DNA from: an uncultured Acidobacteriia bacterium | Lineage (GTDB): Bacteria; Acidobacteriota; Terriglobia; Bryobacterales; Bryobacteraceae | Length of the DNA: 54,907 bases | Direction of reading: 5' to 3' | Assembly: GCA_903900705.1 (NCBI GenBank) | Contig: CAIUOG010000013.1 | Coordinates: 1-54,907 of the forward strand | In this document: positions 29,624 to 38,155 of the stretch, piece after piece | Numbering within the stretch: the stretch's first letter is position 1 | How the letters are laid out: each line of letters starts with the position of its first letter | Made by a program: the position numbers and the translations under genes | Notes under the pieces: model-generated | What the model was told of the DNA's origin: nothing | Seen by the model: the letters and a program-made list of their open reading frames with translations, nothing else | The model's database searches: none

Positions 29624-30802
29624 ATGGGAGTTTACAAACGCGGAGGGACGTATTGGTTCCGGTTCGTCTGGAACGGTGAGACGATTCGGGAATCGGCAAA
29701 GACGGGCAACAAGCGGACGGCTGAGCAGATCGAGGCGGCTCGGAAGACGCAGTTGGCGAAGGGTGAAGTCGGTATCCGTGACCGGGCACCCGTGCCCACT
29801 TTCGCGGAGTTCACCAAACGTGACTTGGTGCCGCATATCGAAGCCCGCTTCGCTGAAAAGTCTTCGACGCGGGCTTACTATCAGGTCCAATTGGGGCACC
29901 TGACCGCGTATTCAGCGCTGGCGGGGACAAGGCTTAGCGATATTTCTTCGGAAGTTGTGGCGGGTTTTATCGAGACTCAACGCCAGGCGGGGTATGAGAT
30001 ATCGAGCGTCAACCGTGCCTTGCAGGTCCTTCGGCGCGCATTCCATCTTGCGGTGGATTGGGGAAAGGTGGACAAGGTTCCGACGAAGATTGCACTGGTA
30101 CCGGGTGAGCGGCGGCGGGAACGGGCTCTGTCTGGTGACGAGGAATCGGCTTACCTGAAAGCGGCGGGCGAGATCGGCGACTCAATCATGGAAGCTTACG
30201 GCAAAGCGCTGGAAGGCATCCGTGCGCGGCAGCGTGGCGAACAGCCACAGAATCCACAGGACCCGTATCTGCTGCGCGATGTTGCCGTCGTGCTTCTGGA
30301 TTGTGGCTTACGTCCAGAAGAATGCCATCGCCTTCGTTGGGAGCACTACCGGGGCGATACGATCTATATCCCGCACGGCAAGACTGTGAACGCCCGACGC
30401 GAGATTCCGTTATCGGCGCGGGTATGTGAGGTTCTGAAGAGTCGGAGGGGGGAATCGCCTTGGGTATTCCCAGCTTTGACCGCGAGCGGGCACATGGAGC
30501 AGTCCACCCTGAAGCGGCAACATGATAAGGCGTGCAAGCTGGCGAAGGTCCCGATCTTCGTACCCTACACCTTCCGGCATACTTGCCTGACCAGATGGGC
30601 GCGAATATTGGATCCATACACGCTGGCATATCTCGCGGGGCACAGCGACTTTGGGACTACCCGGCGGTACGTTCACCCGAATCTCAACACTGCGCGCGAG
30701 GCGCTCGAACGCGCCCGAGTGGCACAGGGTGGGCACAAATCTGGGCACACTCCAGAACGGCGTAGTGACGCCGAACCGGGCATTATCCGTGCAATCGCTT
30801 GA
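29624..30802 (+). CDS. Tyrosine-type site-specific integrase
   Basis: 392 residues. An arm/core-binding SAM-like domain covers ~60-160. Catalytic domain: Arg in LLDCGLRPEECHRL, Lys in IPHGKTVNAR, His-x-x-Arg in FRHTCLTRWA, second His in LAGHSDFGTTRR and the Tyr nucleophile in RYVHPN. It recombines attP with attB in the tRNA-Arg gene. The gene ends 16 bp before the attR core, and a 19-bp motif in its 3' end recurs near attL. SD-like run AAGGCG before the ATG. Confidence 0.93.
   Translation: MGVYKRGGTYWFRFVWNGETIRESAKTGNKRTAEQIEAARKTQLAKGEVGIRDRAPVPTFAEFTKRDLVPHIEARFAEKSSTRAYYQVQLGHLTAYSALAGTRLSDISSEVVAGFIETQRQAGYEISSVNRALQVLRRAFHLAVDWGKVDKVPTKIALVPGERRRERALSGDEESAYLKAAGEIGDSIMEAYGKALEGIRARQRGEQPQNPQDPYLLRDVAVVLLDCGLRPEECHRLRWEHYRGDTIYIPHGKTVNARREIPLSARVCEVLKSRRGESPWVFPALTASGHMEQSTLKRQHDKACKLAKVPIFVPYTFRHTCLTRWARILDPYTLAYLAGHSDFGTTRRYVHPNLNTAREALERARVAQGGHKSGHTPERRSDAEPGIIRAIA
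30732..30750. repeat. 19-bp motif shared with left end (right copy)
   Basis: Identical to 24370-24388, inside the integrase 3' end. GGCAC occurs at 30721, 30732 and 30744, about one helical turn apart, consistent with arm-type sites overlapping the coding sequence. Confidence 0.5.
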
Positions 30803-34015: not shown

Positions 34016-37000
34016 TTGAGTAATACCGCAGTGGAATCCGGGGCCGTGGCCGTTCTGGCCGAGAAGCCCTCAGTCGCGCGTGACATCGCGAAGGTCCTGG
34101 GCGCCAATACTCGTGGGGACGGCTATCTCCACGGCAACGGTTATATCGTCACGTGGGCCATCGGCCACCTCGCCTCGCTCGCCCAGCCCCACGAAATCCA
34201 TCCCCAGTGGAAAGTCTGGCGCAGGGACACGCTCCCCATGCTGCCCAAAGAATGGCCGCTGGTGGTCTACGAAAAGACCAAAGACCAGTTCGAGGTTGTC
34301 CGCAAAATCCTCTCCTCCCCCCGCGTGGGCCGCGTCATCTGCGCCACGGACGCCGGCCGCGAAGGCGAACTCATCTTCCGCTACATCTATGAAGCAGCGG
34401 GCTGCAATAAACCCATCAGCCGCCTCTGGATTTCATCCCTCACCCCCGAAGCCATCCGCAAAGGCTTCGACACCGTCAAACCCGGCAAGGACTACGAACC
34501 TCTGGCCGACGCCGCCCGCGGCCGCAGCCGCGCCGACTGGCTTGTCGGCATGAACCTCTCCCGCGCCTACTCCCTCACCTATGGCCCCGAACTGAGCGTC
34601 GGCCGCGTCCAGACGCCCACGCTCGCCATGGTCGTCGAGCGCGAACTCGCCATCCGCCGTTTCGTCCCGGAGGACTACCTCGAAGTCCTCGCCACCTTCC
34701 GCCCCACCGGACGCCCCGAAGCCGAGGCCTACCGCGGCGCCTGGGTTCGCGACGTCGAAGACATCCAGAAATCCGGCCGCCTGCCCGCCGATGGCGAAGA
34801 GGCCCGGCAGATTGTCGACCGCGCCCGCACCGGCTCCGCCGCCATTGAATCCGTTAAAGCCGAAACGCAGCGCATGAGCCCACCGCTGCTCTATGACCTG
34901 ACCGAACTCCAGCGCCACGCCAACCGCCTCTTCGGCTTCAGCGCCCAGAAGACGCTCGACGTCGCTCAGGTTCTCTACGAACGCCACAAACTGCTCAGTT
35001 ACCCGCGTACTGATAGCCGCCATCTCTCGCAGGACGTCGCCGGAACCCTGCCCCGCATCGTCCAGACCATCGCCGGTCCCTACAAAGACCTGCTCGCCCC
35101 CGGCACCGGCGAAAAGCCGCTCAGCCGCAAGTACGTGGACGACACCAAAGTAAGCGACCACCACGCCATCATCCCCACCGTGACCTCGCCCGACCGCGTC
35201 GACCTTTCGCCGGACGAAGCAAAGCTCTACGACCTCGTCTGCCGCCGGCTGCTCAGCTGCTGGCATGACGACCACATCTGGAACGTCACCACCGTCATCA
35301 CCGCCATCACCAACGCGGCGCTCATCGACCGCTATTATTCCTCCGGCAAAGCGATCCAGCAGGTGGGCTGGAAGGTTCTCGACTTCCAAACCGAAAAGAA
35401 GAAGGCCGCCAAAAAAGCCAGGCCCAAAGCCGGTGAAGACGATGCGGTTGCCGATGACGAACAGGCGCTCCCCGCCGGCCTCGCGCGCGGCCAGGCGCAG
35501 GATGTTCTCGACGCTGAATCCATTCGCAAAAAGACCCGGGCGCCGAAGCGCTTCACCGAAGGCACCCTGCTCACCGCCATGGAAACGGCCGGGAAGACGC
35601 TTGACGAAAAAGAGCTGTCGGACGCCATGAAAGAGAATGGCCTCGGCACCCCGGCCACCCGCGCCTCCATCATTGAGGTACTTCTCAAACGCGAATACAT
35701 CGTTCGCAACGCGAAGAATCTGGAGGCGACCGACAAGGGCATTCACCTGATTGAGGTGGTGCACCCGGAAGTCAAAAGTCCGGCCATGACCGGCCAGTGG
35801 GAAGCCTATCTCAAGCGGATCCAGCGCGGCGAAGCCCAGCTGGATCCCTTCGTTCAGGGCATCGAAGGCTACGTGCGGGACGTCATCGGGAAGGTGGGCC
35901 AGCTCCCCGCCGCGCCTCGCAATGGCCGGAACAATGATGCCCCGCAAACAGCTTCCCTGTCGGCGTCGTCAGCCTCCGCCACCGCGGGCATGCAGTCTCC
36001 GTCCCGGGCGGCCTCTCCCGCCAAACTACCCGCTGCCGAAGCCCCCGTCGCTCAGCCCGGCGAACCGCTCGACGCCCTGCTGCACCGCGCGTTCGGCTTC
36101 GCCTCCTTCCGCGCCAACCAGGAGGAAGTCTGCCGCACCGTCATCGAAGGGCGTGACGCTCTGCTCGTCATGCCCACCGGCGCCGGCAAGTCGCTCTGCT
36201 ACCAGTTGCCCGGCCTCGCCCGCGGCGGTACCACCCTGGTGATCAGCCCGCTGATCGCTCTCATGGAAGACCAGTTCGCCAAACTCCGCGAGCGCGGCTT
36301 TGCCGTCGAATGCATTCATTCCGGTCGGGATCGCGCCGCCTCCCGCCAGGTCTGCATTGACTATCTGAACGGCAAGCTCCAGTTCCTTTTCATCGCACCG
36401 GAACGGCTCCGCGTGCCCGGCTTTCCGGAAATGCTGGCGAAGCGCAAGCCCACCCTCATCGCCATCGACGAAGCGCACTGCATCTCCCAGTGGGGGCACG
36501 ATTTCCGCCCGGATTACCGGCTGCTCGGCGGCTACCTCCCCACCTTCCGCCCCGCGCCCGTCATCGCCCTCACCGCCACCGCCACCGCCGTCGTCCAGCA
36601 CGACATCTGCAACCAGCTCGGCCTCGATCACCAGGCCAGCTTCATCCACGGCTTCCGCCGTTCCAACATCGCCATTGAAGTGGTGGAAACCAGCCCCTCC
36701 CAGCGTCCGGACCTCGCGAAGGAACTCCTTTCCGATCCCGACAACCGCCCCGCCATTATCTACACCCCCAGCCGCAAGCAGGCCGAGAGCGTCGCCGCCC
36801 TGCTCGCCGGCGAATTCTCCACCGCCGCCTATCATGCCGGGCTCGATGCCGACCGCCGCCGTCGCGTCCAGGACGGCTTCCTCAGCGGCAAACTCGAAGT
36901 CATCGTCGCCACCATCGCCTTCGGCATGGGTATCGACAAAGCCAACATCCGTTCCGTGATTCACACCGCTCTGCCTGGCAGCATCGAGGCGTACTATCAG

Positions 37001-38155
37001 GAAATCGGCCGCGCCGGCCGCGATGGCGAACCCAGCCGCGCCATCCTGATGCACTCTTACGCCGACCGCCACACCCACGACTTCTTCTTCGAGCGCGACT
37101 ACCCCGACGTCAAACTCCTCGACCAGATCTTCAGCCGCCTCCGCCCCGACGCACAGCCCCGCGACTTCATCGAAAAGCAAAGCCGCGTCCCCGCCGATGT
37201 CTTTGAAAAGGCTCTCGAAAAGCTGTGGACCCACAGCGGCGTCATCATCGACGCCTCCGATAACCTGACCCGCGGTGGCCCGGAATGGCGCGATTCCTAC
37301 ATCGCCCAGGGCGAGCAGAAGCAGTCCCAGGTAGAGGCCATCATCCGCTACGCCCAGAGCAGCCAGTGCCGCATGTCCAGCCTGGTGAACCACTTCGGCG
37401 ACACCACGGACAGCAGGAAGCCCTGTGGTATCTGTGATTTCTGCGCCCCGGAAAGCTGCATCGCCCAGCGCTTCCGCGCCGCGACGGACGTGGAGCAGGC
37501 TCTCGCCCGCCAGGTGATCGACGCCCTCCGGATGAACAGTCGCTCGGTCGGCAAACTCCACACCGAACTCTGCGATAAGAACGGCATCGACCGCGATGGT
37601 TTCGAGGAACTGGTGGGCGCCATGGCCCGTCTCGGTATCGTCAAGCTGGCCGATTCCGTCTTTGAGAAGGACGGCAAGACCATCCCGTTCCGCAAGGCCA
37701 GCCTTACCCGGGACGCCGAATACCTCGACGAAGACTCGCCCCTCGAACTCACCATCCGGGAGGCTGCGCCTGTCTCCGGCAAGAAGTCCCGCAGCCGCAA
37801 AAAGACGGCCACGAAACCCGCATCGAAAACTGGGGCGAAAAAGGCGAAGACCAGTCCCTCTCACAAATCCGCGCCCGTCCAGGACGATTTCGGCATTACC
37901 GAAGCGTCTGCCCCGCAGCCGGATTCACCCGCCGCACTCATGCTCCGGGAATGGCGTCGCGCCGTGGCGAAAAAGCAGGGCGTCCCCGCCTTCCGCATTA
38001 TGTCCGACCGTGTCCTCAACGCCATTGCCGAAGATGAGCCGCAAACGGCTGCGGACCTGCTCGCCATCCCCGGCATCGGCATCAAGGCGGTGGAGAAGTA
38101 CGGCGCCCAGATCTATCGCATTCTCAACCAGGCGCGCGGCCAGACTTCCGCGTAA
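34016..38155 (+). CDS. Topoisomerase III-RecQ helicase-HRDC fusion
   Basis: 1379 residues. Residues ~8-640 are a complete type IA topoisomerase III: TOPRIM (VLAEKPSVARDIA; ATDAGREGE at ~110-118) and catalytic Tyr329 in LSYPRTDS. A Ser/Ala/Pro-rich linker (~645-685) joins RecQ: Walker A PTGAGKS at 720-726, DEAH 818-821, motif VI YYQEIGRAGRDGEPSRA, and zinc site C1118, C1137, C1140, C1143. A Lys-rich linker (~1255-1290) precedes an HRDC domain (1310-1376). The two enzymes together resolve double Holliday junctions. There is no stop or frame break across either junction. Confidence 0.95.
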   Translation: MSNTAVESGAVAVLAEKPSVARDIAKVLGANTRGDGYLHGNGYIVTWAIGHLASLAQPHEIHPQWKVWRRDTLPMLPKEWPLVVYEKTKDQFEVVRKILSSPRVGRVICATDAGREGELIFRYIYEAAGCNKPISRLWISSLTPEAIRKGFDTVKPGKDYEPLADAARGRSRADWLVGMNLSRAYSLTYGPELSVGRVQTPTLAMVVERELAIRRFVPEDYLEVLATFRPTGRPEAEAYRGAWVRDVEDIQKSGRLPADGEEARQIVDRARTGSAAIESVKAETQRMSPPLLYDLTELQRHANRLFGFSAQKTLDVAQVLYERHKLLSYPRTDSRHLSQDVAGTLPRIVQTIAGPYKDLLAPGTGEKPLSRKYVDDTKVSDHHAIIPTVTSPDRVDLSPDEAKLYDLVCRRLLSCWHDDHIWNVTTVITAITNAALIDRYYSSGKAIQQVGWKVLDFQTEKKKAAKKARPKAGEDDAVADDEQALPAGLARGQAQDVLDAESIRKKTRAPKRFTEGTLLTAMETAGKTLDEKELSDAMKENGLGTPATRASIIEVLLKREYIVRNAKNLEATDKGIHLIEVVHPEVKSPAMTGQWEAYLKRIQRGEAQLDPFVQGIEGYVRDVIGKVGQLPAAPRNGRNNDAPQTASLSASSASATAGMQSPSRAASPAKLPAAEAPVAQPGEPLDALLHRAFGFASFRANQEEVCRTVIEGRDALLVMPTGAGKSLCYQLPGLARGGTTLVISPLIALMEDQFAKLRERGFAVECIHSGRDRAASRQVCIDYLNGKLQFLFIAPERLRVPGFPEMLAKRKPTLIAIDEAHCISQWGHDFRPDYRLLGGYLPTFRPAPVIALTATATAVVQHDICNQLGLDHQASFIHGFRRSNIAIEVVETSPSQRPDLAKELLSDPDNRPAIIYTPSRKQAESVAALLAGEFSTAAYHAGLDADRRRRVQDGFLSGKLEVIVATIAFGMGIDKANIRSVIHTALPGSIEAYYQEIGRAGRDGEPSRAILMHSYADRHTHDFFFERDYPDVKLLDQIFSRLRPDAQPRDFIEKQSRVPADVFEKALEKLWTHSGVIIDASDNLTRGGPEWRDSYIAQGEQKQSQVEAIIRYAQSSQCRMSSLVNHFGDTTDSRKPCGICDFCAPESCIAQRFRAATDVEQALARQVIDALRMNSRSVGKLHTELCDKNGIDRDGFEELVGAMARLGIVKLADSVFEKDGKTIPFRKASLTRDAEYLDEDSPLELTIREAAPVSGKKSRSRKKTATKPASKTGAKKAKTSPSHKSAPVQDDFGITEASAPQPDSPAALMLREWRRAVAKKQGVPAFRIMSDRVLNAIAEDEPQTAADLLAIPGIGIKAVEKYGAQIYRILNQARGQTSA

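Follow-up and report, generated by a model that had tools for sequence, protein, structure and literature searches.

Do some bacteria make a topoisomerase III (topo III) and a RecQ helicase as one protein, and what would joining them do? This question is raised by a gene at positions 34016-38155 (forward strand) of contig CAIUOG010000013.1, a stretch of 54,907 nucleotides (hereafter the window) from an uncultured Acidobacteriia bacterium of the phylum Acidobacteriota, order Bryobacterales. An earlier note on this DNA had described an uninterrupted frame of 1379 codons holding a full topo III and a full RecQ on one polypeptide. Both claims are borne out: the frame is open throughout, and Pfam places Toprim, Topoisom_bac, DEAD, Helicase_C, RecQ_Zn_bind and HRDC along the chain in that order, all above cut-off. 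The single-chain topo III-RecQ fusion is genuine. Dozens of genomes share this single-frame architecture, so the frame is neither chance nor artefact, and its presence in many independent assemblies refutes an assembly artefact as its source. Neither a stop nor a frameshift was found in the linker, whose frame is kept in dozens of species. As to function, the sequence evidence set out below leads us to regard the protein as probably a one-chain RecQ-topo III 'dissolvasome' held together by a loose tether.

A topo III and a RecQ helicase on one chain

The features of the gene (all on the + strand) are as follows.

34016..38155, +: topo III-RecQ-HRDC fusion gene (open frame of 1379 residues plus stop; homologous single frames)
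34049..34438, +: Toprim domain, residues 12-141 (Pfam; holds Glu16, Asp112 and Glu116)
34493..35854, +: type IA topoisomerase core, residues 160-613 (Pfam Topoisom_bac; NCBIfam topo III models above cut-off)
35000..35002, +: codon of the active-site Tyr329 (matches the equivalent motif of E. coli topo III in alignment; conserved)
35876..36091, +: flexible tether, residues 621-692 (low predicted confidence, near-neutral)
36113..36595, +: RecA lobe 1 (DEAD), residues 700-860 (Pfam)
36173..36193, +: Walker A PTGAGKS, residues 720-726 (sequence, conservation)
36467..36478, +: DEAH box, residues 818-821 (sequence, conservation)
36713..37027, +: RecA lobe 2 (Helicase_C), residues 900-1004 (Pfam)
37109..37273, +: extra winged-helix-like unit, about residues 1032-1086 (predicted; between lobe 2 and the zinc hairpin)
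37310..37444, +: RecQ zinc site, residues 1099-1143, with Cys1118, 1137, 1140 and 1143 (Pfam RecQ_Zn_bind, conservation, E. coli RecQ alignment)
37472..37705, +: RQC-type winged helix, about residues 1153-1230 (predicted, with a fold match)
37808..37915, +: second disordered linker, about residues 1265-1300 (AlphaFold2 low confidence, omega analysis)
37943..38122, +: HRDC domain, residues 1310-1369 (Pfam, AlphaFold2)

The start codon is uncertain: the TTG at 34016 lacks a Shine-Dalgarno-like sequence, and GTG codons at 34031 and 34046 are in-frame alternatives. The choice among the three alters at most 10 residues.

The first half passed two NCBIfam topo III models (PRK07726, 680.7 bits, cut-off 597; TIGR01056, 587.4 bits, cut-off 515.75) and aligned in sequence with residues 5-611 of the 653 of E. 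coli topo III (TopB), i.e., almost end to end, stopping about 40 residues before the TopB end. For a model of residues 8-1160, the eight best PDB matches were all E. coli topo III (TMt 0.79-0.87). Glu16, Asp112, Glu116 and Tyr329 are the same in all fused rows that have letters there in an alignment of 90 fused frames; we take these Toprim acidic residues and the active tyrosine to have their usual catalytic roles. The DxDxE motif lacks its second Asp (DAGRE). So do 64 of 65 rows that carry the label stand-alone, a label that for seven of them, contig-cut or broken, is not proven. In the region where we take the decatenation loop of E. coli topo III to lie, the alignment has a segment of comparable length. 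Domain hits, NCBIfam cut-offs and residue conservation thus all support the original assignment of a topo III with Tyr329 in its active site. Two stand-alone topo III frames from Acidobacteriota (L092 and L093; about 1063-1065 residues) run about 400 residues beyond the topoisomerase core.

The second half passed the general RecQ model TIGR00614 (395.9 bits, cut-off 219.8). E. coli RecQ aligned with it over the motor and then, in a second weak stretch, over the zinc site; the best Foldseek matches were bacterial RecQ cores (TMt 0.72-0.73), with BLM next. RecQ-family helicases move with 3'-5' polarity. An AlphaFold2 model of this half, built on 48 aligned sequences, had a predicted local distance difference test score (pLDDT) of 89.5 and a predicted template modelling score (pTM) of 0.78. 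In module numbering it places an extra winged helix at about residues 357-411, then the zinc hairpin, an RQC winged helix at about 478-555, a low-confidence stretch at 590-625 and the HRDC at about 630-703. The earlier description of a RecQ motor with a zinc site and HRDC stands, with Walker A, DEAH and the four cysteines all in place; it had left out the two predicted winged helices. The interval from lobe 2 to the zinc site is 113-135 residues in several other stand-alone RecQ-like proteins and 50 in one short RecQ, five further rows being too short to judge. Since a similar segment occurs in stand-alone proteins, the extra insert may predate the fusion.

Conserved enzymes around a variable tether

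Tyr329, Walker A (except Ala723), DEAH and the four cysteines are invariant in 18 diverse fused proteins. Across the 90 aligned fused frames (which include two partial copies, L042 of L077 and L047 of L078, and eight frames open at the locus end), Tyr329, Gly722, Gly724, Lys725, Ser726, DEAH and the four cysteines are identical in every lettered row, two rows lacking letters at Tyr329 and four at each Cys. Gly722, Gly724, Lys725, Ser726, DEAH, Gln995, Arg999 and Arg1002 are kept in 90 of 90. Among 23 conserved positions counted, His382 alone bore an exception, and that a single one. HRDC is usual in fused proteins, not universal: it is present in 81 frames, and five of the nine that lack it are cut at the locus end. 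The four closed frames without it (L088, L109, L113 and the Nannocystis frame L263) are rich in lysine and arginine near their ends.

Omega was 0.00-0.18, where computable, for the topoisomerase, RecA, insert, zinc/winged-helix and HRDC modules in 10 of 11 close pairs, and module values reached up to 0.34 in the eleventh (L254/L256); many values of more distant pairs were saturated. Linker omega ranged from 0.15 to 1.24 (nine values, eight of them at least 0.41; one pair was saturated and one identical). Judged by these sequence comparisons, both enzyme halves are under purifying selection and the linker is near-neutral. Linker length varies from 37 to 389 residues among fused relatives, with a composition rich in P, A, G, S and R. 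In the AlphaFold2 model of residues 8-1160 (40 sequences; overall pLDDT 84.4), residues 633-674 fall below a pLDDT of 50, and the tether is predicted to be disordered.

Distribution and history of the fusion

The genome of origin (G000, 99.87% complete) has two type IA topoisomerases, namely the fusion and a presumed topA (28% identical), and the fusion alone scores over the RecQ cut-off, the next best match reaching 58 bits. A check for separate topB and recQ genes, proposed in the earlier note, thus turned up neither a second topo III nor, over cut-off, a second RecQ.

Our distribution scans are not a census. Among the matches listed, 28 of the 41 genomes of its own order (own genome included) carry a single-frame fusion (that of G005 cut by a contig end), one has it broken at an assembly gap (G026) and three have the RecQ half alone (G036-G038). 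No complete stand-alone topo III was seen among the matches listed for these 41 genomes; the other type IA matches were topA-like genes (about 27-33% identical where listed) and two partial topo III-like frames (G020:C100 and G040:C165). In 14 of the 28 fused genomes no RecQ besides the fusion reaches E <= 1e-45, and the other 14 carry further RecQ-family genes. The three genomes with the RecQ half alone (loci L070-L072) belong to one genus; that half is of the fused clade, and their single type IA match is topA-like.

A draw of 396 genomes from the phylum (own genome included) gave 113 with any match at E <= 1e-95; the halves lie on separate contigs in G286 and G416, and G281 and G321 have a truncated form. 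In the family of Corallococcus, 43 of 59 genomes have a single frame, which a contig end cuts in some; another 4 show just pieces, or halves on separate contigs, and 12 gave no match at E <= 1e-100. Frames there were judged from open-frame lengths and, for fetched loci, also from alignment. The fusion also lies in the complete chromosome of Nannocystis poenicansa (NZ_CP114040) and in 2 of 61 genomes of a planctomycete family. Further carriers, among the matches listed and with names as labelled, are Polyangiaceae metagenome-assembled genomes (MAGs), a Competibacteraceae MAG and a 'Geobacter' MAG.

In two Listeria records of a plasmid collection (H1 and H2), topo III and RecQ matches lie close together and, in H2, are annotated as separate genes. 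Adjacent genes of this kind are an arrangement from which a fusion could arise. A mobile or viral origin of the fusion was rejected: 35 viral loci matched the RecQ part only (the scan patterns being RecQ motifs), and 80% coverage of the fusion protein was reached by no phage record and by none of the 5000 plasmid records that the search covered. Gene fission was likewise rejected at the two breaks that were looked into: the one in G026 falls where Ns lie between poly-C and poly-G, in an assembly gap, and the one in L120 is a frame slip in a MAG.

We built quick trees from deduplicated rows (97 of 158 for topB and 114 of 136 for RecQ), leaving out near-copies and most clostridial topB; support values are SH-aLRT, and many deep branches are weakly supported. 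In the topB tree, a single branch (support 99) has all 24 stand-alone rows on one side and 64 fused, 3 truncated, 2 broken and 4 contig-cut rows on the other. In the RecQ tree, one clade (support 100) holds 68 fused, 27 stand-alone, 2 broken and 2 contig-cut rows. Stand-alone RecQs are nested there among fused ones, e.g., 17 of family f4 (support 100), which we take to be Acidobacteriaceae. An exclusive clade of fused RecQs was rejected in an approximately unbiased test (p-AU 3.4e-6; 66 rows), which was run after the first tree had been seen, with groups fixed by gene structure. Over long stretches, the nested stand-alone RecQs, from Acidobacteriaceae and others, share about 46-58% identity with the RecQ half; unlike the fusion, they have no topoisomerase half. 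Starred branches force six changes for 'fused' and three for 'single' in the 114-row RecQ tree and two in the 66-row tree; with so few forced changes, the number of losses of the topoisomerase half is uncertain. The simplest history suggested by the trees is one fusion, then descent, probably accompanied by some transfer, with the topoisomerase half lost several times.

A derivative with a motor-dead helicase lobe

Three Acidobacteriaceae, close relatives of one another, retain topo III followed by the first RecA lobe only, with the same end residue in all three.

L037, 1387-4080: topo III and first RecA lobe
L038, 1444-4068: topo III and first RecA lobe
L118, 2-2626: topo III and first RecA lobe

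All three have lost the DEAH, TATAT and SPLIALMEDQ motifs and have an altered Walker A, and all seven checked topoisomerase residues are intact. Omega in these loci was 0.07-0.09 for the topoisomerase, 0.51-0.63 for the linker and 0.13-0.17 for the lobe. A lobe that has lost its motor motifs yet keeps a low omega has apparently been selected for a non-motor role, on a small sample of three close relatives. Their genomes also carry a separate RecQ that matches the whole RecQ half at 52%; two such RecQs from genomes with the truncated form are in the RecQ tree, both within the fused clade.

How the fused chain may work

In a dissolvasome of this kind, the RecQ module would bind branched or stalled DNA, unwind or branch-migrate it and expose single strands, and the tethered topo III would cut one strand at Tyr329, pass another and reseal. 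Double Holliday junctions, hemicatenanes and converging forks could thereby be undone without crossovers. The tether would mainly hold the topoisomerase near the single-stranded product of the helicase, and in its own genome the fusion would be the one source found for either activity, topo III or RecQ. By the established biochemistry of the RecQ-topo III pair, the helicase drives branch migration while the topoisomerase relieves strain and unlinks the hemicatenane (PMC8191776).

The earlier note had gone further and suggested that decatenation may be obligately linked to the helicase. This is not supported, since nature has kept either function without the other: topoisomerase-less RecQs are nested in the fused clade, and one lineage has a dead lobe. 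The long, variable, near-neutral tether and the low pTM of the joined model speak against it too. The fixed 1:1 stoichiometry that the note proposed holds per chain, but half of the fused genomes of the order carry further RecQ-family genes.

Several results weigh against a one-chain dissolvasome. Among the matches listed, both halves of the fused clade are missing from nine of the order's 41 genomes (completeness is below 85% in five of them); the RecQ-family genes that these nine carry are different ones (in G027, none at E <= 1e-45), and they show no complete topo III. Single-frame fusions are also scarce in the phylum draw, with just 10 in 396 genomes (the own genome, G045, G061, G095, G102, G192, G216, G374, G389 and G408). 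The RecQ equivalog TIGR01389 missed its cut-off (486.2 bits, cut-off 640.2), and no conserved DNA-repair neighbours were seen in the short flanks. The pTM of the joined model is only 0.55, so the relative placing of the halves is not predicted and no interface is shown. Finally, an ATG or GTG behind a Shine-Dalgarno-like stretch lies in or beside the linker in 38 of the 90 fused frames, which leaves some room for separate translation of the RecQ half.

Could the two halves instead form an integrated machine as in reverse gyrase, with helicase lobes that touch or gate the topoisomerase and ATP hydrolysis that controls strand passage? The motor-dead lobe, far more constrained than its linker, appears to serve the topoisomerase and keeps such a geared reading alive. 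This lobe evidence comes from three close relatives, however, and the tether, long and unconserved, is predicted to be poorly ordered, which makes a tightly geared machine less likely. The domain order is also opposite to that of reverse gyrase, and the score of the fusion on the reverse gyrase model is far below cut-off. Overall, we consider an integrated machine unlikely. A related proposal, which we put forward tentatively and regard as doubtful, is that lobe 1 may also be an allosteric part of the topoisomerase: it would dock on the topo III gate to make a coupled strand-passage machine and, in some Acidobacteriaceae, would have been kept for that alone as a motor-dead regulatory domain.

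We think it rather unlikely that the fusion is a bystander, i.e., that adjacent topB and recQ genes lost the intervening stop, that the halves work alone and that the link has no function. The near-neutral linker, the nested topoisomerase-less RecQs and the close but separate Listeria genes would all fit such an origin. Against it, the frame has been kept across two phyla despite linkers that change freely in length and sequence, both breaks that we looked into are an assembly gap or a MAG frame slip, and none of the 24 stand-alone topB rows falls inside the fused topB clade. It is highly improbable that the frame is an error of assembly or sequencing, or that internal initiation yields two proteins: the candidate starts just described would permit the latter, but the same frame occurs in independent assemblies including NZ_CP114040, and the 90 fused frames have no conserved internal start for the RecQ half (the most shared ATG column holding 6 of 90).

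Gene neighbourhood

The genes that flank the fusion are unrelated to it by Pfam. When nine neighbours were compared with other loci, most of which had short flanks, the closest relative (L012) held matches to two of them and an unrelated locus (L168) a weak match to one; no other locus matched any. An operon or neighbour logic was rejected, as the flanking genes are unrelated and hardly matched in relatives. The nearer neighbours encode a GDSL lipase, an alginate-export-like protein and a DUF4337 protein, and a gene for a phage-type integrase lies a few kb upstream of the fusion, at 29624-30802 of the window.

Relation to known systems and meaning

E. coli TopB with RecQ, Sgs1-Top3-Rmi1 and BLM-TOP3A-RMI draw on the same two enzyme families and presumably act on the same substrates; the eukaryotic forms include an OB-fold Rmi subunit. 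The RecQ half matches the catalytic core of E. coli RecQ and BLM, to which the fusion adds its extra predicted winged-helix-like unit. In the RecQ-topo III(-Rmi) dissolvasome the partners are separate proteins, whereas here one conserved open frame is predicted to join them physically.

Reverse gyrase likewise has a superfamily 2 (SF2) helicase-like module and a type IA topoisomerase on one chain. Its helicase-like module is N-terminal, whereas the fusion is topoisomerase-first and has a RecQ motor with zinc site, RQC and HRDC behind a long loose tether; the reverse gyrase model TIGR01054 scores 100.5 bits on it (cut-off 471.7), in line with the earlier claim that order and helicase type differ from those of reverse gyrase. 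Domain databases probably hold the topo III-RecQ architecture. Judged by title and the start of the abstract, no paper on a topo III-RecQ fusion was found in the open full-text literature searched, which leaves out most subscription papers and so is weak evidence of novelty. A review calls the helicase domain of reverse gyrase RecQ-like and suggests a role in recombination (PMC8185306).

Studies of RecQ and topo III usually work with separate proteins and their helpers, and a natural single chain fixes the partners. The fused chain would give a compact system for double Holliday junction dissolution and for single-molecule work, with natural controls in its own lineage: the RecQ half alone, a topoisomerase with a dead lobe, and linkers 37 to 389 residues long. 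Beside reverse gyrase, it would be a second joining of an SF2 helicase and a type IA topoisomerase, with the two parts in reverse order.

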